Virus record (IMG/VR): IMGVR_UViG_3300017779_000111
Span: 1 to 27,970 of that record
Strand: one strand, 5' to 3'
Length of the DNA: 27,970 nucleotides
Source: a virus
Shown here in pieces: positions 4,063 to 19,247 of this stretch (the stretch's first letter is position 1; each line of letters opens with the position of its first letter). The translations under genes were made by a program, and so were the position numbers. The notes under the pieces are model-generated. The model did no database searches. It had not been told where the DNA came from and saw only the letters and a list, made by a program, of their open reading frames with translations.

Positions 4063-4860
4063 ATGAATCCAGTAAAACAAATCAATAACATTTACGCATA
4101 TGTCAGAGTGTCAACTGTTGAGCAAGCCAAGAATGGTATCTCACTAGAAACGCAAAAGATGCTGATAAATGAGTTTGTTAAAAACAAATTTAATCGTGAG
4201 GTTGACCATTTCTTTGAAGATGCTGGTATATCTGGCACAGTTCCAATAAACGAAAGACCAGCTTCCAGAGAATTGACTGACACTATGGATGAACACGATA
4301 TTTTGGTTTCAACCAGATTGTGTCGTTTATCCAGATCAATGTCTGATCTAACGAAAATGATACCTATATTTGAGCAAACTGGTGTCACTTATTATTTGTG
4401 TGAGCAGTTTGGTGATATGCCAATATCATACCCAAAACCCAAAAACAGCAAATCATTACATAATAAATTCGATATGAATGTTATGGTAAACAAGATAATG
4501 CTAATATTTTTATCAGCATTTGCAGAGATTGAACATGGCAATACCAAACAAAAATTTGCTGAAGGTAAGTTGCATTGGGCAGAAAAAGGTTATGCAGTAG
4601 GTGGAGCATCACCATTTGGATTTAAGAAACAAGAAGAAAAGTTCAAAGAAGGTAATCGTATCAAGCGGAGAATGAAACTTGTACCAGTACCAGAAGAACA
4701 AAAAGTCCTTTCATTCATTAAAAAGTTAAGAGATAGAGGATTAGGACCTACTAGAATACATAGACAGGTTACTGAATTTTTTCCAGAATTTGCAGACATA
4801 CCATATTGGAAAATTAGAAATATTATTGATCGCAAAGTCCAAGGTTTGCATATAGCCTAA
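4063..4860 (+). CDS. Serine site-specific recombinase (resolvase/invertase family)
   Basis: A 265-residue recombinase. The N-terminal resolvase domain starts with YAYVRVSTVEQ (nucleophile Ser17) and contains DAGISGT and the RLCRLSR segment (Arg85, Arg88, Arg91). A long helix (AEIEHGNTKQKFAEGK) leads to GGASPFGFK, typical of the joint with the recombinase DNA-binding domain. The C-terminal part, about 80 residues, is much shorter than in large serine integrases, so it sits between small resolvases and integrases. It could integrate the phage, resolve multimers or invert a fibre segment. The adjacent gap 3931-4062 with its palindrome is the best place for its DNA target. No integration site pair can be identified. 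Confidence 0.85.
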   Translation: MNPVKQINNIYAYVRVSTVEQAKNGISLETQKMLINEFVKNKFNREVDHFFEDAGISGTVPINERPASRELTDTMDEHDILVSTRLCRLSRSMSDLTKMIPIFEQTGVTYYLCEQFGDMPISYPKPKNSKSLHNKFDMNVMVNKIMLIFLSAFAEIEHGNTKQKFAEGKLHWAEKGYAVGGASPFGFKKQEEKFKEGNRIKRRMKLVPVPEEQKVLSFIKKLRDRGLGPTRIHRQVTEFFPEFADIPYWKIRNIIDRKVQGLHIA

Positions 4861-9187: not shown

Positions 9188-9622
9188 ATGTCAAAACAAA
9201 TAAATATAAAAAAAATATTCTTAGCAAACAGTGAAATAAATGTACTGGATCCAGTGAATTCAATGCAATTAGATGACTACACTGTAGACACAGAAATGAA
9301 TTGTAAATCTGAATATACAGAAATGACCTACAATGGAGTAGAAATTCACATGGTTGCTTTGCAATTTCAAATATTTTGCAATGTAAAAAATGATCCTATG
9401 TATAACATGAACTTTTCTCAAAATGGATTTTTTTCTTTAAAAGGTTACGAACATGAGGAAGTAGAAGAAGCATTAGCTATCGAATGCCCACAAATACTCA
9501 TGCCTTATGCAAGACTACATGCAGAATATCTTACTAAAAACACTGGATTAGCACCTACTCTTATACAAGATATTGACTTCAAAGAAGCCTATTACAAAGA
9601 AATAGGTAAAGAATACAAATGA
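9188..9622 (+). CDS. secB: SecB-like protein-export chaperone
   Basis: A 144-residue protein, close to the 155 residues of E. coli SecB. The C-terminal half shows the SecB signature in order: GFFSLKG (80-86), CPQILMPYAR (100-109; in E. coli CPNILFPYAR) and GLAPTLIQDIDF (120-131; in E. coli GTFPQLNLAPVNF). The N-terminus (INIKKIFLANSEIN) corresponds to the first strand. SecB tetramers hold proteins unfolded and deliver them to SecA. The acidic or zinc-binding C-terminal tail that contacts SecA is short or missing. Being encoded between fibre-modifying enzymes and a repeat protein, it may keep the fibre soluble or route proteins to export. It ends with an ATGA overlap into the oxygenase gene. 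Confidence 0.8.
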   Translation: MSKQINIKKIFLANSEINVLDPVNSMQLDDYTVDTEMNCKSEYTEMTYNGVEIHMVALQFQIFCNVKNDPMYNMNFSQNGFFSLKGYEHEEVEEALAIECPQILMPYARLHAEYLTKNTGLAPTLIQDIDFKEAYYKEIGKEYK

Positions 9623-10393: not shown

Positions 10394-11359
10394 ATGGCGA
10401 TAAAAATTTGGGATGGTGATTCAATTGAAACACCAAATCCAATAGTCGTAAAAGTTACTGATGGAACTCTGCGTTTCGTTAATTACGCTGTCGTAAAAGA
10501 AACAGATGGTTCTCTTACTACTTTTTTTAACGCTATAAAACAAACTTCTAAAAATACTACAACCACTGTCAGTACAACTAATTCAACTACAACTACTTTC
10601 AACACAACTGCTTCTACAACAAGAGATACCTCTACAAGTAAGTCAACGACAACTACTTTTAACACAACTTTATCAACTACAACTACTTTCAACACAACTG
10701 CTTCTACAACTACGTCTTACAACACAACTAGGTCAACTACAACTTCGTACAATACGACAAGAAGCACCACTACAACTTTTGGAACAAGTCACAGTACGAC
10801 CACTACTTTTGGAACTTCTAATAGTACAACTCGTAGTACAAGTGGAACTATAAGTACAAGTTATACAACTACTTACAGTACAAACCTACCGGGTAAAGGA
10901 AACTCTAGAAATACTTCGCACACCACATCACGAAATACATCAGCGAGTTTCAATACGAGCTATACCACTTCGTTCAACACCAGTAGATCTACAACAACTT
11001 CTTACAACACAAGTAGGTCTACTACGACTACTTTTGGAACAAGTCACAGTACGACCACTACTTTTGGAACAAGTCACAGTACGACCACTACATTTAGTAC
11101 AAGTAAAAACACTACTACTACTTTTTCTACTACTAACAGCACCACAACTACATTTAATACAACAACTACATACGATACGACTGCTTCAACCTCAAAAAGT
11201 ACGACCACTACATTCAATACATCTACTACTACAGCTACAGTTATATTCGAAAGACTAACAGCTACAGGAAACACAGGTTCGATATTTGAAACAGAAGTAG
11301 CTTCAGCTAACGCACATAACGCTAGATATTGGGATGGAGACTCATGGGAAGAAGCATAA
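10394..11359 (+). CDS. Thr/Asn-rich decapeptide-repeat fibre protein, copy 2
   Basis: A 321-residue paralog of the protein at 6735-7427 with the same N-terminal module (IKIWDGDSIETPNPI, VVKETDGSLTT) and C-terminus (ARYWDGDSW). The centre contains about 20 units near xSTTTTFNTT or xSTTTTFGTSH, with an aromatic residue every ten positions. At residues 165-180 there is a Gly/Lys break (NLPGKGNSRN). Three identical 30-base units lie at 10776-10805, 11031-11060 and 11061-11090. TATAACGAG stands eight bases upstream of the ATG, exactly as in copy 1. Probably an elongated virion surface protein, longer than copy 1 by repeat expansion. Confidence 0.7.
   Translation: MAIKIWDGDSIETPNPIVVKVTDGTLRFVNYAVVKETDGSLTTFFNAIKQTSKNTTTTVSTTNSTTTTFNTTASTTRDTSTSKSTTTTFNTTLSTTTTFNTTASTTTSYNTTRSTTTSYNTTRSTTTTFGTSHSTTTTFGTSNSTTRSTSGTISTSYTTTYSTNLPGKGNSRNTSHTTSRNTSASFNTSYTTSFNTSRSTTTSYNTSRSTTTTFGTSHSTTTTFGTSHSTTTTFSTSKNTTTTFSTTNSTTTTFNTTTTYDTTASTSKSTTTTFNTSTTTATVIFERLTATGNTGSIFETEVASANAHNARYWDGDSWEEA
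10776..11090 (+). repeat. Identical 30-base repeats in the second Thr-rich gene
   Basis: The same 30 bases occur at 10776-10805 and, in direct tandem, at 11031-11060 and 11061-11090. Each copy encodes one decapeptide of the TTTTFGTSHS type. Identity at silent positions shows recent duplication or gene conversion, not selection on the protein alone. Confidence 0.8.
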
Positions 11360-11918: not shown

Positions 11919-12430
11919 TCGAAGATATTATTAAATGGATTGAAGATTTTGTGGAAAAACCAAATAAAAATTTTTCTAATTTTCCACCATGTCCATTTTC
12001 AAAAAGAACTAGAAAATTAAATAGAGTAAAATTTATTGAATATAATAACGATGAAAATAGTTTAAAAGATCACATTGATCAAATGGATACAGATAAACAT
12101 GATATGACTATTATTATTTGTGATAAAAATACTTGGACAGCAAAAGAAGCATATAAGTTAGGAAGAAAATTAGATAAGTATGCTATGAAACAAGGTTTAG
12201 CTTTTCACGAAGATCATCCTAAAATGATAGAAAAAGTAGGTGACACAATTTTAAATAATTCTAAATATATTCTTTTATATATACAAAGTTATCAACAAAT
12301 TAAAGAATCGCAAAAACAATTAAGAAAAACTAAGTATTACGATATTTGGAAAAACAATAACATTTTTGGCATAGATAAGGTGAATGATATAGATTGCCGA
12401 CAAGATGCCTACAATGATAAGTACGGATGA
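11915..12430 (+). CDS. Hypothetical protein with CPFSK motif (171 aa)
   Basis: A 171-residue protein starting at an ATGA overlap. WIEDFVEKPNKNF is followed by PPCPFSKRTR near residue 25. A pattern of Trp-Ile-Glu, then CPFxK, and later HPKMIEKVG and LLYIQSYQQI resembles a bacterial family of unknown function (the shape recalls DUF1415 proteins), but I cannot confirm it. The single Cys in CPF could be redox-active or bind a ligand. It overlaps the next gene by four bases, giving a coupled run with the CoA-binding protein. Confidence 0.55.
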   Translation: MIEDIIKWIEDFVEKPNKNFSNFPPCPFSKRTRKLNRVKFIEYNNDENSLKDHIDQMDTDKHDMTIIICDKNTWTAKEAYKLGRKLDKYAMKQGLAFHEDHPKMIEKVGDTILNNSKYILLYIQSYQQIKESQKQLRKTKYYDIWKNNNIFGIDKVNDIDCRQDAYNDKYG

Positions 12431-13398
12431 CTTTTTTTAATCCTACTTCAATAGCACTTGTAGGAGCTTCTACAAAAACTCTCGAAGAAGCTATATCTCA
12501 AAACAAGTATTGGGGTGCTGCTTTAAGAGATTCTCTTTTAGAAAGCACTACAGTTCCTTTATATCTCATTACTAAACATGAATCATATACAGATTTGCCA
12601 GAAATTCCTGATTTAGCGATAGTTGCAGTACCAAACATTATTAATGAAGTAACTAAGATTATAGCTAAAGGTACAGATAAAATTATAGTTATCAATACTT
12701 TAGATGCTTTTACAGAAAAAAAGTTATATAAAATAGTAAAAAACAAAGCAACAATCCTTGGTCCTAATTGTTTAGGTGTTCATTGTGATGCTTATTCTAC
12801 TTTTCTTTTAAATAAAAAAATTACTGGAGATATAGGTTTAGTTACACAAAGTGGTGGTGTTGGTGAAGCACTATTAGAAAATGTACCAAACTTGAGAACA
12901 GTAATAAGTGTAGGTAGCGCACAACAATATAAAATACAAGATGCAATACAATCACTAAGGCAAGAACCTAACATAAAAAGAATTGCATTATATTCAGAAA
13001 GTTATATACCAGAAGATGAAGATGTAATTACTTTAATGCCTAAACATAATAAAAAAAGTGTAAAAGCTGTTTATGATCATACAGGGTTAACTTTAGAAAA
13101 AAATAATGCAATTAATGACTTAGATAATTTTATAAAAATTTTAAATGAAAGAGTTTTAGTAGTTAGTAATTCAGGTGGTTGGCTTTGTTTGTATGCTGGT
13201 CAAAATCCTAATCAAAATATGAAATTAGTTGATACATATGCAACGACCAATCCTTTGCAAAAAGCTATAGAAATGCAATCAGGATATACTAGAGCAGTTG
13301 TGTTTTTTAATAAGTATGAAGATTTTAAAAAAGAAGAATTAGATGAGTCTAAATTACTGATACCTTACGAAATTATAAAAAGTAGTGATTTGTGTTAA
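12427..13398 (+). CDS. CoA-binding, NDP-forming acyl-CoA synthetase-like protein
   Basis: A 323-residue protein with features of the alpha part of ADP-forming acetyl-CoA synthetases and succinyl-CoA ligases. It has SIALVGAST (8-16) for the CoA-binding Rossmann fold, PDLAIVAVP (61-69), ILGPNCLGV (110-118), GLVTQSGGVGEALL (137-150), VISVGS (159-164) and IALYSES (186-192). DHTG at 217-220 aligns with the SHTG segment that carries the phospho-histidine in such enzymes. No ATP-grasp domain is encoded here, so complete ligase activity would need a partner. A role in making or transferring an acyl group in the fibre cassette is a hypothesis. It is the most unexpected metabolic gene in the window. 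Confidence 0.75.
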   Translation: MTFFNPTSIALVGASTKTLEEAISQNKYWGAALRDSLLESTTVPLYLITKHESYTDLPEIPDLAIVAVPNIINEVTKIIAKGTDKIIVINTLDAFTEKKLYKIVKNKATILGPNCLGVHCDAYSTFLLNKKITGDIGLVTQSGGVGEALLENVPNLRTVISVGSAQQYKIQDAIQSLRQEPNIKRIALYSESYIPEDEDVITLMPKHNKKSVKAVYDHTGLTLEKNNAINDLDNFIKILNERVLVVSNSGGWLCLYAGQNPNQNMKLVDTYATTNPLQKAIEMQSGYTRAVVFFNKYEDFKKEELDESKLLIPYEIIKSSDLC

Positions 13399-14225: not shown

Positions 14226-14546
14226 ATGGATAACAACGATGTTGTCAAAAAAAAGATAGAACTAGAAGTAGAGATAGGCTCTACACATATCGAAAGAGGA
14301 ATAAATCCATATCAAAAATGGATTCATCTAGCGAAAGCTATTGATGCATGGCGCATTTTTCCAAGAATGTTCCTCAGCGTTTACATATTCTTACTGTACT
14401 ATTCAGTTATGTGGTTTATGGAATTGTCTGAGCCATCGCTTGAGCAATCAGGTTTGATCTCAATTATTGTAGGAGCTGGAGCTGCTTGGTTTGGTCTGTA
14501 TGCTGGTTCAGCATCATCAAGTAAGAATTTCAAAGGCGAGGAATAG
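14226..14546 (+). CDS. Putative holin, two membrane segments
   Basis: A 106-residue protein preceded by TGGAG eight bases before the ATG. The N-terminal cytoplasmic part ends with YQKWIHLAKAIDAWRIFPR. Two membrane segments follow, about residues 48-65 (LSVYIFLLYYSVMWFM) and 78-95 (GLISIIVGAGAAWFGLYAG), with a short charged end. The layout and the lysis-gene context fit a class II holin. Similar proteins occur in other marine phages next to lysis genes, to my recollection. The next gene starts with the TAGTG overlap. Confidence 0.65.
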   Translation: MDNNDVVKKKIELEVEIGSTHIERGINPYQKWIHLAKAIDAWRIFPRMFLSVYIFLLYYSVMWFMELSEPSLEQSGLISIIVGAGAAWFGLYAGSASSSKNFKGEE

Positions 14547-14842
14547 TGGAGCAAGCTGTTCAGCTTTTATCTGAACTTGGATTGCCTGTAGCTGGCGGTT
14601 TGGTAATGGCTTATTTTATATTTCTTGTAATGAAACAGTTAATGGATGCTTTGGTAGGCGAAATACAAACAGTCCAAGCCATATCTAAAATGCTCATTAC
14701 CAGAGCAGCAACTATGAATAACGATATGATACGCATAGATACTAGCGTTTCTAGTGCATTAGGATTATCACCAGATTTAGATAGAATAGCTAGAGCAGAA
14801 AATTTCGTTGAAGATGGAAAGATTGATGCAAGGCGAGATTAA
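14546..14842 (+). CDS. Small membrane protein A of a tandem pair
   Basis: A 98-residue protein with a GTG start overlapping the upstream TAG. One membrane segment (about residues 12-32, LPVAGGLVMAYFIFLVM) is followed by a soluble helix with TAQ-rich heptads. The layout (short N-terminal helix, GLPVAGG-type membrane entry, then a coiled coil) is shared with the next gene, so the two look like a duplicated pair. YvrJ-like or holin-accessory membrane proteins have the same plan. Role: lysis or envelope anchoring, inferred from context. Confidence 0.6.
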   Translation: MEQAVQLLSELGLPVAGGLVMAYFIFLVMKQLMDALVGEIQTVQAISKMLITRAATMNNDMIRIDTSVSSALGLSPDLDRIARAENFVEDGKIDARRD

Positions 14843-15096
14843 TGGATATTGCAAAGATAGTGGCAGAGTTTGGGTTTCCAATTACGATGGTCCTTGGTCT
14901 TGGGTATTTCGTATTTTTTGTATGGCAAACTATTACAAATAAAATTGATCCAGCGGTACAAGAAATGAAGGTAACTATCATTAGATTGACAGATCAGCTC
15001 AGATTGCTGGACCAAGACATGATCCGCTTACAGCAGAAAACGAATACTGTGCTAGAATTAAAAGAAGAAAATAAGTTGAAGGATGATGAAAAGTAG
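14842..15096 (+). CDS. Small membrane protein B of a tandem pair
   Basis: An 84-residue protein that starts in a TAATG overlap. Membrane segment at about residues 11-29 (FPITMVLGLGYFVFFVW), then a coiled-coil tail (VQEMKVTIIRLTDQLRLLDQ). It shares its plan and several positions (EFGFPxxx, YFxFxV, DMIR) with the preceding protein. Holin-like or anti-holin-like function is possible. Its end overlaps the start of the CsgF gene by 14 bases, which links the membrane cluster to the curli genes. Confidence 0.6.
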   Translation: MDIAKIVAEFGFPITMVLGLGYFVFFVWQTITNKIDPAVQEMKVTIIRLTDQLRLLDQDMIRLQQKTNTVLELKEENKLKDDEK

Positions 15097-15559
15097 TTTT
15101 TCGTGGTTTTTAGTAATATATGTATATATAGCATTGTTTTCAGTGTTATTGACTTCTTATGGCTATGCAGACGAAATAATGTTCAAGTTCAAAAGTCCAG
15201 CATTTTCTGGTATCAACACCTCAAGTCATTATCTTACAGTAGATTCGCAAGAAGCTAGTCGAAAACAAGCTGTCAAGGATGAAATTAAAGCCTATCAAGA
15301 TGAATTAGCCAGAGATGCACAAAATACCACTCTTGCTAGGTTCATCAGGAACCTAGAATCGAGAGTCTATGCACAGCTATCAAGACAAATGGTTGAGCAG
15401 CTCTTTGGCGAGACACCTCAGAAATCTGGTAAATTAGAGCTTGAGGGAAACATAATAGAATATACTGTGGAGAATGATGAATTTATTACGCTCACTATTA
15501 CAGATGAACTGGGTGGACAGACGTCTATTACTGTTCCTATTGGTAGTTTTACTTTCTAG
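15083..15559 (+). CDS. csgF: CsgF-like curli assembly factor
   Basis: A 158-residue secreted protein. The signal peptide spans residues 1-29 (hydrophobic core LVIYVYIALFSVLL, cleavage near YGYA). The mature start EIMFKFKSPAFSGIN corresponds to the CsgF segment with NPAFGG that inserts into the CsgG pore. Later it has QLSRQMVEQLFGE and ends TDELGGQTSITVPIGSF, like the C-terminus of CsgF. In curli systems CsgF forms the outer constriction of the CsgG channel and couples secretion to nucleation. It overlaps csgG by 86 bases (56 if the later start is used). csgE is not seen. Two ATGs lie at 15083 and 15086. Confidence 0.85.
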   Translation: MMKSSFSWFLVIYVYIALFSVLLTSYGYADEIMFKFKSPAFSGINTSSHYLTVDSQEASRKQAVKDEIKAYQDELARDAQNTTLARFIRNLESRVYAQLSRQMVEQLFGETPQKSGKLELEGNIIEYTVENDEFITLTITDELGGQTSITVPIGSFTF

Positions 15560-16325
15560 CTGTGCTTCCCACAACATGTTGGAAGGTAGCGGTATTCCTA
15601 GTATCGTTATTAAAAGTTCTTCTATATTAGATCTACAATCAGAAGAATTAAAAAATGTTGGTGTACCTACAAGAAAACCAGTTGTAGCCATATATCCGAA
15701 TTCTTTTGCAGATCACACAGGTCAGCGCAAAAGTAATGGACAGTTTGCATTATTTTCAACTGCTATTACCCAAGCACCAGAAGCGTTTCTTATTAGAGCA
15801 TTAAAACACAGTGGCAATGGTAAATTCTGGCGAGTTGTTGAAAGAGTAGGCTTAGATTCGCTTACTAAAGAAAGGCAGATAATTAGATCTACTAGGGTAG
15901 ATTTTGAAGATCAAAGCGAAGTTAAACCTTTACTGTTCGCTGGACTTTTGCTTCAAGGGGGTGTATTGAGTTATGATCAAAATGTACTTAGTGGTGGCAG
16001 CGGAGCAAGATACCTCGGTATTGGTAGCTCTAAACAGTACAGAGAAGATTTAATGACAGTTAGTTTAAGGCTTGTTTCAGTCAGTACAGGAGAGATATTA
16101 ATAGAAACTTCTGCGCAAAAAAGCCTACTTAGTGTTGGATTATCACAAGATATTTTTCGATTTCTAGATGAAGGACAAAGGTTGGTAGAGGTGGAAGGTG
16201 GTAGAGCGCAAAATGAATCAACTAGCATTGTATTACAATCAGTAGTTGAAAGAGCTGTACTAGAAATAATAAAGATAGGCGAGACAAAAGGGTACTGGGA
16301 GATTAGAGATGAAGAAGTTAATTAG
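15474..16325 (+). CDS. csgG: CsgG-like outer-membrane curli secretion channel lipoprotein
   Basis: A 283-residue lipoprotein. The signal ends in the lipobox LLSSC (Cys30 from this start). Characteristic CsgG motifs follow: FADHTGQ near 78-84, ERQIIRS (133-139), a membrane hairpin region with GGSGARYLGIG (174-184), VSVSTGEIL (201-209), and FRFLDEGQRLVE-like ending. The length is close to that of E. coli CsgG (277). CsgG forms a nonameric pore in the outer membrane through which curlin subunits pass. GGAG before the ATG at 15477 supports a start there or at 15474; 15504 also gives a good lipoprotein signal. It overlaps csgF and, by 17 bases, the curlin gene. Confidence 0.9.
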   Translation: MMNLLRSLLQMNWVDRRLLLFLLVVLLSSCASHNMLEGSGIPSIVIKSSSILDLQSEELKNVGVPTRKPVVAIYPNSFADHTGQRKSNGQFALFSTAITQAPEAFLIRALKHSGNGKFWRVVERVGLDSLTKERQIIRSTRVDFEDQSEVKPLLFAGLLLQGGVLSYDQNVLSGGSGARYLGIGSSKQYREDLMTVSLRLVSVSTGEILIETSAQKSLLSVGLSQDIFRFLDEGQRLVEVEGGRAQNESTSIVLQSVVERAVLEIIKIGETKGYWEIRDEEVN

Positions 16326-17013
16326 TTTATTATTAGTTTGCTGTATTGCAATAGCAGATGATAACGAAATTTATGTGGATCAAGCTGGAACATCCTCATC
16401 AATTGATTTGGAGCAATTAGGTTCTGGAAACATTATAGGTGGATTATTATCTGCACATGGATCTATGACACCATTTGATCTCGATGGCAATTCGATGACA
16501 TTAGATGTAAATTTAATTGGTAACAATAACAAGATGTTAGGCGACATAAACTCAGATACATTCACAGGTCTGTTTGACTTCGATGGTGATACCAACTCAT
16601 ATACCATTCAAGTAGATCCTACAAACACCTATTCAGCCGATAACGCAAACGTGAATGTGAACGTGGATGGATCAACAAATGCCATGACATTAGATTTAGC
16701 TACTTCTTCCTTGGCTTCTGGTGCAGATGTAGACACAATAGTTCAAGGAAATAGTAATACAGTGAATATTGACTTAGATGTAGATTCAGCAGTAAATTAT
16801 ATGGATATAGACGGAGACAGTAATACAGTAAACTACGATGGGAACGGCTATGCTGGAGCATATTTCAAACTCGAACATGATGGCTCATCGAGAGCCTTTG
16901 AAGTTGATCAACAATCTACTTTGGATAATGATTGGCTGCGTGTTATTTCAAACGGAAGCAACGGCACAGTTTGCATCAACCAGTCGGACCAAGGAACCTC
17001 AACCTCTTGCTAA
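16309..17013 (+). CDS. Curlin-like secreted repeat protein (CsgA/CsgB-type)
   Basis: A 234-residue protein with a signal peptide (MKKLISLLLVCCIAIA). The mature part starts EIYVDQAGTSSSIDLEQLGSGN, a curlin repeat pattern (I-x-V-x-Q-x-G, then I-x-L-x-Q-x-G-x-N). It continues with Asn/Asp/Gly-rich strands (MTLDVNLIGNNNKM, VQGNSNTVNIDLD, IDGDSNTVNYDG). The C-terminus (NGTVCINQSDQGTSTSC) has two cysteines. This fits an extracellular fibre-forming substrate of the CsgG/CsgF channel encoded just upstream. The repeats are more Asp-rich and less regular than in E. coli CsgA. Its last 137 bases also encode the signal peptide of the FecR-domain protein in another frame. Confidence 0.7.
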   Translation: MKKLISLLLVCCIAIADDNEIYVDQAGTSSSIDLEQLGSGNIIGGLLSAHGSMTPFDLDGNSMTLDVNLIGNNNKMLGDINSDTFTGLFDFDGDTNSYTIQVDPTNTYSADNANVNVNVDGSTNAMTLDLATSSLASGADVDTIVQGNSNTVNIDLDVDSAVNYMDIDGDSNTVNYDGNGYAGAYFKLEHDGSSRAFEVDQQSTLDNDWLRVISNGSNGTVCINQSDQGTSTSC

Positions 17014-18043
17014 AGATATTGGCTCAATCTCTGAGCTAAATGGTGTAACCAGAGTTGTTCGAGAGAAACCTTTAAAAAGTGAGGTAGGCTTCTCACTAGA
17101 TTCTATGGATAAGCTGGAAACAGCTGCTGGTCGCATGGGTGTTACTTTTCGTGATGAAACAACTATTAGGTTGACCGAGAATAGCACTGTGATTGTTGAC
17201 TCCTTTATATTTGATCCAAATCCATCTAACTCCAGTATGGCTTTAAACTTTGTAAAAGGAACCGGTAGGTTTATCAGTTCAAAGTCAAAAAGAATAAAAA
17301 AAGAAAACATTAAGATACGAGCTGGCAATAGTGCAGTTGTAGGGATTAGGGGCACGGATCTCACGCTAACAGTAAAAGATACTGGGGAGGTTCTCGTTAT
17401 TCTGCTGCCTAATGAATTTGGAGAAAGTTCAGGTGAGATAGTCGTTACAACTGCTTTGGGAAGTGTGGTTTTGAATAAACCATATCAGGCTACAACTGTG
17501 TATAACTTGGAATCAGTGCCATCAAATCCAGTAATACTAGATCTTACTTTAGATCAAATAGATAACTATTTAATTGTTTCTCCACCAGAAGAAAAACGAC
17601 TAGAGACAAATGAATCAAGCGCAACTGCATCATCATCTATATTGGACACAGATTTTCTCGAATTTGACGATTTAGATGCTGATGTGCTAGATGCAGAATC
17701 AGAGCTAGAATACACAGAGCTTGATATAGATTACCTCGCAACTAATTTTTTGGAAGATTTGCTTGATGTGATACAAGAGGTAGATGAATTGAGCAAAGCA
17801 TCAGGAGCATTGGCAAAACAAGGCTTGGAAGGTACAAGTATTGGTTATGATTCTGACACACAAATATCCAGTTTTGTGACTGATTCAGAAGTAAAATTAA
17901 TACGCGAAGTAGAAGGTAAATTACAAATACAGGTTTCTAAAGACAGCAGTACAGCAATTAGCATAGATCAAGAAGGAAAAGTAAATCAAGTCAGAGTGAA
18001 TGGTGGCACTCAATCTAATATAAATATAAAACAAGGAAGTTAA
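16877..18043 (+). CDS. Secreted FecR-domain protein with curlin-like C-terminus
   Basis: A 388-residue protein. The ATG at 16877 (or 16880) starts a signal peptide (KLINNLLWIMIGCVLF, cleavage near ATA-Q). A FecR domain covers residues 52-175: ELNGVTRVV, DKLETAAGRMGV, DETTIRLTENS and AVVGIRGTDL. A long acidic linker follows (DTDFLEFDDLDADVLDAE). The last 29 residues (SIDQEGKVNQV, then NINIKQGS) repeat the curlin Q-x-G-x-x-N pattern. No start codon in this frame exists between 17013 and the FecR domain, so it must begin inside the curlin-like gene. It is likely exported and could anchor or nucleate the curlin-like protein at the surface; that is inference. Confidence 0.75.
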   Translation: MMAHREPLKLINNLLWIMIGCVLFQTEATAQFASTSRTKEPQPLAKDIGSISELNGVTRVVREKPLKSEVGFSLDSMDKLETAAGRMGVTFRDETTIRLTENSTVIVDSFIFDPNPSNSSMALNFVKGTGRFISSKSKRIKKENIKIRAGNSAVVGIRGTDLTLTVKDTGEVLVILLPNEFGESSGEIVVTTALGSVVLNKPYQATTVYNLESVPSNPVILDLTLDQIDNYLIVSPPEEKRLETNESSATASSSILDTDFLEFDDLDADVLDAESELEYTELDIDYLATNFLEDLLDVIQEVDELSKASGALAKQGLEGTSIGYDSDTQISSFVTDSEVKLIREVEGKLQIQVSKDSSTAISIDQEGKVNQVRVNGGTQSNINIKQGS

Positions 18044-18105: not shown

Positions 18106-18510
18106 ATGAGCAAAATATTAATTGGTGTTATTCTTGTGATGTCGTTTGGTGGTTATCTGTTGTGGAATCAGAATGCAGAATTAAAAGCTCTTAACTATGC
18201 ATACGAAATTAGAGATAAAGAACAACAGGAAACCATAACTCAATTACAATCTGATTTCAGTGAACAAACAGAAGGTTTACTAGAAATACAAGCAAAGAGT
18301 AATGAAATACAAAAAGAAATGAATAATTACTTAGATGTATTTAGAAGGCATAGTTTGACTAAATTGGCATCAGCAAAGCCAAATCTTATTGAAACAAGAG
18401 CTAATAAAGGAACTAAGAATGTATTTAACAGCATTGAAGAAGATTCTAGGGTACTCGATAATCTTGACGATGGTTTGCAGTTGCAGTCTGTATCAAAGAC
18501 TGATCCCTGA
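18106..18510 (+). CDS. Putative i-spanin (Rz-like)
   Basis: A 134-residue protein with an N-terminal membrane anchor (KILIGVILVMSFGGYLLW) and a long periplasmic coiled coil rich in Gln and Glu (about residues 24-85). This is the layout of inner-membrane spanins. The next gene, a lipoprotein, starts inside it in another frame, the classical nested Rz/Rz1 arrangement. An AGGCGAAAAG site precedes the ATG. It acts in the last stage of lysis by joining inner and outer membranes. No sequence match to lambda Rz can be claimed. Confidence 0.7.
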   Translation: MSKILIGVILVMSFGGYLLWNQNAELKALNYAYEIRDKEQQETITQLQSDFSEQTEGLLEIQAKSNEIQKEMNNYLDVFRRHSLTKLASAKPNLIETRANKGTKNVFNSIEEDSRVLDNLDDGLQLQSVSKTDP

Positions 18511-18814
18511 GCCTAAGCCACCTGAAGTACAAATAATAACAAAACCAGTAGAAAAAACTATTGTACAGCCTATCATGCCTAGAGAAATTGATCTCAAGGA
18601 GCCTTATTGGTTTGTTGTAAGTAAATCTAATATTGATGAATTTATAGCCAGAGTTGAAAAAGAGCAAGGGCAATTGGTATTTTTCGCAATGAGTGTGCCT
18701 GATTACGAGCTTATGGCTTATAACATGCAAGAATTAAAAAGATACATTAACGAAATGCAAGAAATAATTGTTTATTATAGAAAAGTGACTAAAGGAGAAA
18801 ACGATGAAGATTAG
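18419..18814 (+). CDS. Putative o-spanin lipoprotein (Rz1-like)
   Basis: A 131-residue protein. The ATG at 18419 follows AAAGGA and is preferred to an in-frame TTG at 18389. The signal (LKKILGYSIILTMVCSC) ends in cysteines that can serve as a lipobox. A proline-rich part follows (IPEPKPPEVQ, IVQPIMPRE), typical of Rz1. Unusually, a helical segment of about 70 residues continues to the C-terminus, so it is longer than most o-spanins. Its first 92 bases overlap the i-spanin gene. Its end overlaps the endolysin start by 11 bases. Confidence 0.65.
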   Translation: MYLTALKKILGYSIILTMVCSCSLYQRLIPEPKPPEVQIITKPVEKTIVQPIMPREIDLKEPYWFVVSKSNIDEFIARVEKEQGQLVFFAMSVPDYELMAYNMQELKRYINEMQEIIVYYRKVTKGENDED

Positions 18815-19247
18815 TCAAGAAGGTATTGCCTTGATTAAAAAGTTCGAGGGGTGCAAGCTAGAAACCTATCGATGTAGCGCAGATGTACCTACAATTGGTT
18901 ATGGGCATACTAGAACTGTTGAAGAAAACATGAGCATTACAAAAGATACAGCTGAAGCGTTACTTGTTGAAGATCTCGAAGAATTTGAAGGGTATGTAAA
19001 TGATTTAGTGACAGTTGATCTTGATGAGAACCAATTTTCAAGTTTAGTTAGTTGGACTTTCAATTTAGGACCTAGCAACCTCAGAAGCAGTACGCTGCTC
19101 AAGTTGCTCAACAAAGAAAAATACGATGAAATACCAGCTCAAATCAAGCGTTGGAACAAAAGTGCTGGTGTCGTTTCTGATGGTTTGATCAGAAGGCGAT
19201 TGGCAGAAAGTTTATTATTCCAAGGAAAAGAATGGCATGATGTGTGA
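18804..19247 (+). CDS. Endolysin, GH24 (T4-type) lysozyme
   Basis: A 147-residue muramidase. The catalytic set E-x8-C-x5-T is present: E15 in KKFEG, C24 and T30, followed by IGYGHT. The second half has the conserved FSSLVSWTFNLGPSNLRSSTLLK and GLIRRRLAE motifs. No signal peptide or SAR segment is seen, so release through a holin (see 14226-14546) is expected. An AAAGGAGAAAACG site precedes the ATG. It cuts the glycan strands of peptidoglycan. It is the last gene before the hairpin at 19292-19341. Confidence 0.9.
   Translation: MKISQEGIALIKKFEGCKLETYRCSADVPTIGYGHTRTVEENMSITKDTAEALLVEDLEEFEGYVNDLVTVDLDENQFSSLVSWTFNLGPSNLRSSTLLKLLNKEKYDEIPAQIKRWNKSAGVVSDGLIRRRLAESLLFQGKEWHDV

Follow-up and report, generated by a model that had tools for sequence, protein, structure and literature searches.

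A curli-type gene set on a viral contig

The viral record IMGVR_UViG_3300017779_000111 (27,970 bases, analyzed as a whole and referred to below as the window) carries genes for CsgF, CsgG, a curlin-like protein, and a FecR-domain protein. The four genes lie head to tail on the plus strand and are preceded by two paralogous genes for small membrane proteins. An initial annotation had named the four as a phage-borne curli export set. All of them are present: CsgF, CsgG, and the FecR protein, as well as a lysozyme encoded downstream, pass the curated Pfam cutoffs, and the curlin-like protein scores below its cutoff. The genes of the module are as follows:

14546–14842, + strand: small one-helix membrane protein A, 98 amino acids (aa), GTG start, module member (phrog_18771, E = 7e-23; paralogue of protein B)
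14842–15096, + strand: small one-helix membrane protein B, 84 aa, with a helical tail (phrog_18771, E = 7e-24)
15083–15559, + strand: csgF, 158 aa, signal peptide (PF10614, E = 2.6e-19)
15504–16325, + strand: csgG, outer-membrane lipoprotein pore, 273 aa from the start at 15504 (PF03783, E = 2e-44; lipobox; PDB CsgG, E = 1e-40)
16309–17013, + strand: curlin-like secreted protein, 234 aa, signal peptide MKKLISLLLVCCIAIA, mature N terminus DDNEIYVDQAGTSSSIDLEQLGSGN (family alignment; AlphaFold2; Pfam in relatives; ratio of nonsynonymous to synonymous substitution rates, dN/dS, 0.07–0.21)
~16880–18043, + strand: FecR-domain protein, 387 aa if started at 16880 (PF04773, E = 4e-10; PupR fold match)

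The csgF and csgG genes overlap out of frame by ~56 nucleotides (nt; 15504–15559). The overlap of the curlin-like and FecR genes, also out of frame, measures 86 to 134 nt depending on the FecR start (16880–17013 from 16880). It is possible in most relatives too, and the FecR export signal is encoded within the conserved C terminus of the curlin-like protein.

The long csgG open reading frame (ORF) opens at 15474; relatives and the lipoprotein signal LLSSC, whose lipobox cysteine is invariant in the family, indicate a start at ~15504. The PF03783 match spans residues 64 to 277 of the long ORF, and the PDB match was obtained by phmmer against the solved Escherichia coli CsgG. The window CsgG is 43% identical to that of phage HTVC008M and 39% identical to that of phage Melnitz. 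In CsgF, the N-terminal FxFxxPxFxG stretch aligns with E. coli CsgF. Sequence comparison thus supports curli-family membership for both proteins.

The signal peptide that the initial annotation had assigned to the curlin-like protein is clear and was borne out by signal-peptide prediction. In the family alignment, the mature N terminus is conserved as NEIYVxQxGxxxxIDLEQLGSxN, and invariant Q, G, and N positions are distributed along the protein. The repeats are degenerate, being rich in D and N rather than Q, and two cysteines near the C terminus are conserved in at least 90% of relatives. PF07012 was matched at E ≤ 0.1 by 8 of 46 curlin-like relatives (best, 2e-5), and the HTVC008M and Melnitz proteins contain curlin repeats above the Pfam cutoff. 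An AlphaFold2 model built with 44 family members is an all-beta solenoid with a mean predicted local distance difference test score (pLDDT) of 87.6 and a predicted template modeling score of 0.85. All PDB matches of this model were generic parallel beta-helices, with SufB/SufD scoring best (Z = 17.5); curlin structures were not among them, and the result is evidence neither way. With the protein as query, tblastn of the phage collection gave no match, since the family is too diverged for pairwise search. We read the protein encoded at 16309–17013 as a diverged curlin.

The module is conserved among viral relatives

A survey of csgG neighborhoods was seeded with CsgG and covered 15 close loci and the 80 best wider loci of at least 599 relatives. 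After removal of overlapping copies and of the window's own copy, 89 viral loci were left. They were scored by profile hidden Markov models, and only those extending far enough were counted. The curlin-like gene was present in 80 of 80 viral contigs with enough flank, CsgF in 82 of 82, and FecR in 63 of 63. The possibility that relatives keep csgG and csgF but never a curlin-like gene, which the initial annotation had raised, is therefore not what was found. An adenylate cyclase was present in 24 of 54 contigs with enough flank; in many relatives, FecR is followed by this cyclase, a sensor adenylate/guanylate cyclase with a CHASE2 domain (e.g., L051, 8487–10250, + strand). In the branch of the window, none was detected beside the module. 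In pairwise comparisons with five relatives, dN/dS of module genes was mostly 0.05 to 0.2. All module genes are thus under purifying selection, and none looks like a decaying passenger.

In the CsgG tree, where joins among long branches are uncertain, the window clusters with viral contigs in which adenylate cyclase was not found, and this group lies inside a large viral clade, well apart from three bacterial CsgG sequences. The three bacterial-looking loci have csgF and csgG with two curlin-like genes; within 15 to 16 kilobases (kb) of these loci, no match to FecR, the small membrane protein, or the cyclase was found. The FecR and small membrane proteins therefore look like phage additions. 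This agrees with the published observation that bacterial curli operons include neither FecR nor cyclase (PMC9599517). CsgF was matched at E ≤ 0.001 in 5 of 289 genomes of the class of G001, a Maricaulis metagenome-assembled genome (MAG), the class being taken as Alphaproteobacteria. Relatives L095 to L100, which come from genome contigs, were considered as bacterial operons and rejected: they have phage-type companions where the contig is long enough, which suggests phage contigs binned into MAGs.

Small membrane proteins upstream of csgF belong to the curli set

Proteins of the phrog_18771 family are mostly ~85 to 120 aa long and consist of one hydrophobic helix followed by a helical tail. 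At least one such protein is encoded directly upstream of csgF in 76 of 76 flanked viral contigs, and 25 contigs have two. Protein B is 36% identical to the HTVC008M protein and 40% identical to the Melnitz protein in this position. Since these proteins accompany csgF even in T4-like phages that have none of the lysis genes described below nearby, they belong to the curli set and not to lysis. Their position, number, and size agree with those of the "histidine kinase" of PMC9599517, which they probably correspond to; kinase families (HisKA/HATPase core) were absent from the Pfam matches of 32 relatives.

The FecR-domain protein lacks an anti-sigma part

The FecR domain is the sole recognizable domain of this protein, and PF04773 was matched in 37 of 37 relatives. 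A Foldseek search with the AlphaFold2 model gave a single significant PDB match, the FecR-type periplasmic domain of PupR (6ovk, E = 1e-4). The architecture comprises an N-terminal export signal, the FecR head, an acidic linker modeled with low confidence, a helix, and a C-terminal beta tail (model residues 293 to 356, pLDDT ~65 to 78). In relatives, the C termini form two strands, each closing with Q (..IxQxGK...NGGxSSxIxIxQ..), in a curlin-repeat-like pattern. When scanned with a matrix of bacterial curlin repeats, most relatives have their best site 31 residues from the end; P values from shuffling single proteins ranged from 0.00 to ~0.5 (0.18 in the window). The likeness of the tail to a curlin repeat is thus suggestive only.

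The FecR ORF opens at 16838. Its start, nested in the curlin gene but read in a different frame, is ambiguous. The signal peptide proposed in the initial annotation is likely if translation begins at 16880, which yields a good one, but depends on the start chosen: 16928, the position usable by most relatives, yields a poor one in the window. An ATG located 53 to 86 nt ahead of the curlin stop is available in most relatives. FecR/PupR regulators need a cytoplasmic anti-sigma domain before the membrane helix. Here, the hydrophobic stretch is preceded by no more than ~12 residues if translation begins at 16880 and by no more than ~26 if it begins where the ORF opens, so every candidate start leaves too few residues for such a domain. 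This makes the published label "iron-dependent regulator" doubtful. Given the missing anti-sigma part, an export accessory appears more likely than an iron regulator, and the protein may possibly be a second secreted substrate.

Phage lineage and genomic neighborhood

The window is probably a fragment of a larger genome, because related complete genomes are 57 to 61 kb long. Its terminase is 57 to 62% identical, and its portal 50 to 53% identical, to those of 023Pt_psg01, HTVC027P, and HTVC023P. These identities place the contig in or near the HTVC023P-type pelagiphage group and suggest Pelagibacter as the host. The terminase and portal of phage DSL-LC04, whose listed host is Gammaproteobacteria, are similarly close to those of the window. 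A near-DNA search of the phage collection gave no match to the window.

On the plus strand, the order of genes is a small membrane gene, the two paralogous small membrane genes, csgF, csgG, the curlin-like gene, FecR, a spanin pair, lysozyme, and the large terminase. The neighbors of the module are:

14226–14546, + strand: small membrane protein outside the module, possible holin by position only (phrog_10198, function unknown, E = 1.6e-20; no Pfam match)
18106–18510, + strand: inner spanin (spanin pair matched by phrog_739 and phrog_812)
18389–18814, + strand: outer spanin ORF (same spanin pair)
18804–19247, + strand: phage lysozyme (PF00959, E = 3e-44)

The spanin and endolysin genes that the initial annotation had placed downstream were recovered by these matches. 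Its "holin-like" label for the upstream genes was not: they encode small membrane proteins, and the PHROG families that these matched all lack an assigned function. Of 24 viral contigs in which the module has at least 4 kb of flank on each side, 18 encode a phage lysozyme within ~6 kb of it, either before or after the set. In HTVC008M and Melnitz, no such lysis genes were found within 7 kb of the module. Since the set lies within or beside lysis genes, it is probably expressed late in infection.

Several other genes were observed in the window. A homologue of the SecB export chaperone is encoded at 9188–9622 (+ strand; PF02556, E = 7e-18). Besides the window, the records searched contained it in three other virus contigs that carry the module and in one MAG. 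HTVC008M, Melnitz, and three complete genomes of the HTVC023P type gave no match, and neither did tblastn of the phage collection. A link between SecB and the module was rejected, as SecB is sporadic and occurs in few module-bearing phage records. A Thr/Ser-rich repeat protein with conserved ends (TTTTFNTTxSTT...; 10394–11359, + strand) is also encoded in related phages (L011, 118–657 and 2449–3261, + strand) and is perhaps a tail or surface protein. A serine recombinase/resolvase-type protein (4063–4860, + strand; PF00239, E = 1.4e-21) is a possible integrase. A succinyl-CoA-ligase-like protein (12427–13398, + strand; PF13607, E = 5e-9) has a similar-looking counterpart in L011 (4991–5965).

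Discussion

The window is a new instance, from an ocean phage, of a published system whose gene order appeared in print in 2020 to 2022 for related phages that infect the marine bacterium SAR11. CsgF and CsgG were described in pelagimyophages, where "sibling capture" was suggested (PMC7029224, 2020), and a lysis role was proposed for the Melnitz curli genes (PMC9004378, 2022). The full module, including CsgA/B and FecR, was reported in nine HTVC023P-type genomes (Wittmers et al. 2022, PMC9599517); the same study detected viral module genes in metatranscriptomes and at each of the 65 ocean stations that it covered (PMC9599517). The combination that the initial annotation considered unusual is thus a published pelagiphage module with the same order (PMC9599517), kept in all 80 related viral contigs with enough flank. 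Surface-fiber roles, such as clumping or a block to superinfection, have also been proposed in the literature; no functional test of phage curli was found in the literature searched.

The HTVC023P-type type VIII secretion module (PMC9599517) shares with the window the phage lineage, the order small protein(s)-CsgF-CsgG-CsgA/B-FecR, and the absence of CsgE. In contrast, the window lacks adenylate cyclase and a second curlin gene, and its genes ahead of csgF encode short one-helix membrane proteins rather than recognizable histidine kinases. The T4-like phages HTVC008M and Melnitz (PMC7029224 and PMC9004378) have homologous small membrane, CsgF, CsgG, curlin-like, and FecR proteins in identical order; unlike the window, they carry a second curlin-repeat gene and adenylate cyclase, and their module is not beside these lysis genes. 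Bacterial curli operons (E. coli csgBAC-csgDEFG and alphaproteobacterial csgFG) likewise have the CsgG pore and CsgF, together with a curlin-repeat substrate to which the curlin-like protein is a putative counterpart, whereas the phage set has no detected CsgE, adds FecR and small membrane proteins, and encodes a degenerate curlin-like protein. CsgC and CsgD, neither of which was searched for here, are lacking in the pelagiphage module (PMC9599517). With the FecR/PupR anti-sigma regulators, the phage FecR protein shares the periplasmic FecR-type beta domain (PF04773; PupR structure match), but it lacks the cytoplasmic anti-sigma domain and adds the acidic linker and C-terminal beta tail.

Judged by sequence, the set is most likely a working curlin-type export set. 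We favor, as the probable function, a phage-encoded type VIII (curli) secretion module that exports the curlin-like protein to the surface of the infected cell. The protein would leave the infected cell first by Sec and then by the CsgG-CsgF pore, to form a fiber or coat on the cell's outer surface. The FecR protein would be an accessory (a nucleator, anchor, or gate) that remains periplasmic or sits at the surface, and would not act as an iron-responsive anti-sigma factor. The benefit would probably be an altered infected-cell surface that holds daughter cells or debris together near new virions, blocks other phages, or both; we rank neither above the other.

Several observations weigh against this reading. 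The window curlin-like protein has one canonical QxGxxN repeat and matches PF07012 at E = 0.04, below the cutoff, so any amyloid assembly is putative. CsgE (PF10627) gave no match in 16 records, several of which are fragments, while the E. coli control matched; CsgE is reportedly not strictly essential (PMC7029224), and its nondetection thus does not exclude a working export set. No clumping was seen in infected OM43 cultures, although Melnitz carries the same set (Buchholz et al., PMC9004378). The survey, being seeded with CsgG peptides and taking the 80 best matches, is biased to relatives of the window and undersamples distant ones, and terminase and portal kinship is the sole basis for the host.

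Among other readings, a distinct variant of curli export is a tentative possibility: the FecR protein would serve as nucleator or anchor in place of CsgB, its beta tail copying a curlin repeat, and the one-helix proteins would be an inner-membrane component in place of CsgE. It is unlikely that the curlin-like protein is exported as a non-amyloid, folded beta-solenoid adhesin or coat. The confident monomeric solenoid predicted by AlphaFold2, the degenerate D/N-rich repeats, and the two conserved cysteines are consistent with such a protein; the curlin-repeat character of its N-terminal stretch and the recognized repeats of the T4-like relatives argue otherwise, and curlins themselves are thought to be solenoids.

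A lysis role of CsgG-CsgF as an outer-membrane pore was among the options of the initial annotation and corresponds to the Melnitz proposal (PMC9004378). The pair would have been repurposed to time or assist lysis, and the curlin-like protein would be a plug or hitchhiker. The frequent proximity of lysozyme and the location of the window module between small membrane genes and spanins fit this idea. Yet CsgG does not replace the lysis proteins of the window, which still encodes a lysozyme and a spanin pair, and HTVC008M and Melnitz have none of these lysis genes within 7 kb of the module. Nor would a lysis pore need the curlin-like gene or FecR, yet both are present in every contig with enough flank. 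We therefore regard it as improbable. A pore through which the infected cell imports or leaks small molecules such as nutrients or iron chelates, FecR being a regulator linked to iron, was put forward in PMC7029224 and PMC9599517; we consider it very unlikely. The nondetection of a gene for the CsgE gate would suit such a pore, but the curlin-like gene would again be superfluous, and the FecR protein lacks the cytoplasmic part used for transcriptional regulation.

The window adds an example of the module and flags two likely annotation errors, the kinase and the iron regulator, that would mislead experiments. If the set works as a curlin exporter, the virus gives one of the most abundant bacteria of the ocean, reportedly without curli genes of its own, a surface fiber during infection. 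Superinfection, aggregation, and the encounter of virions with new hosts would then be affected.

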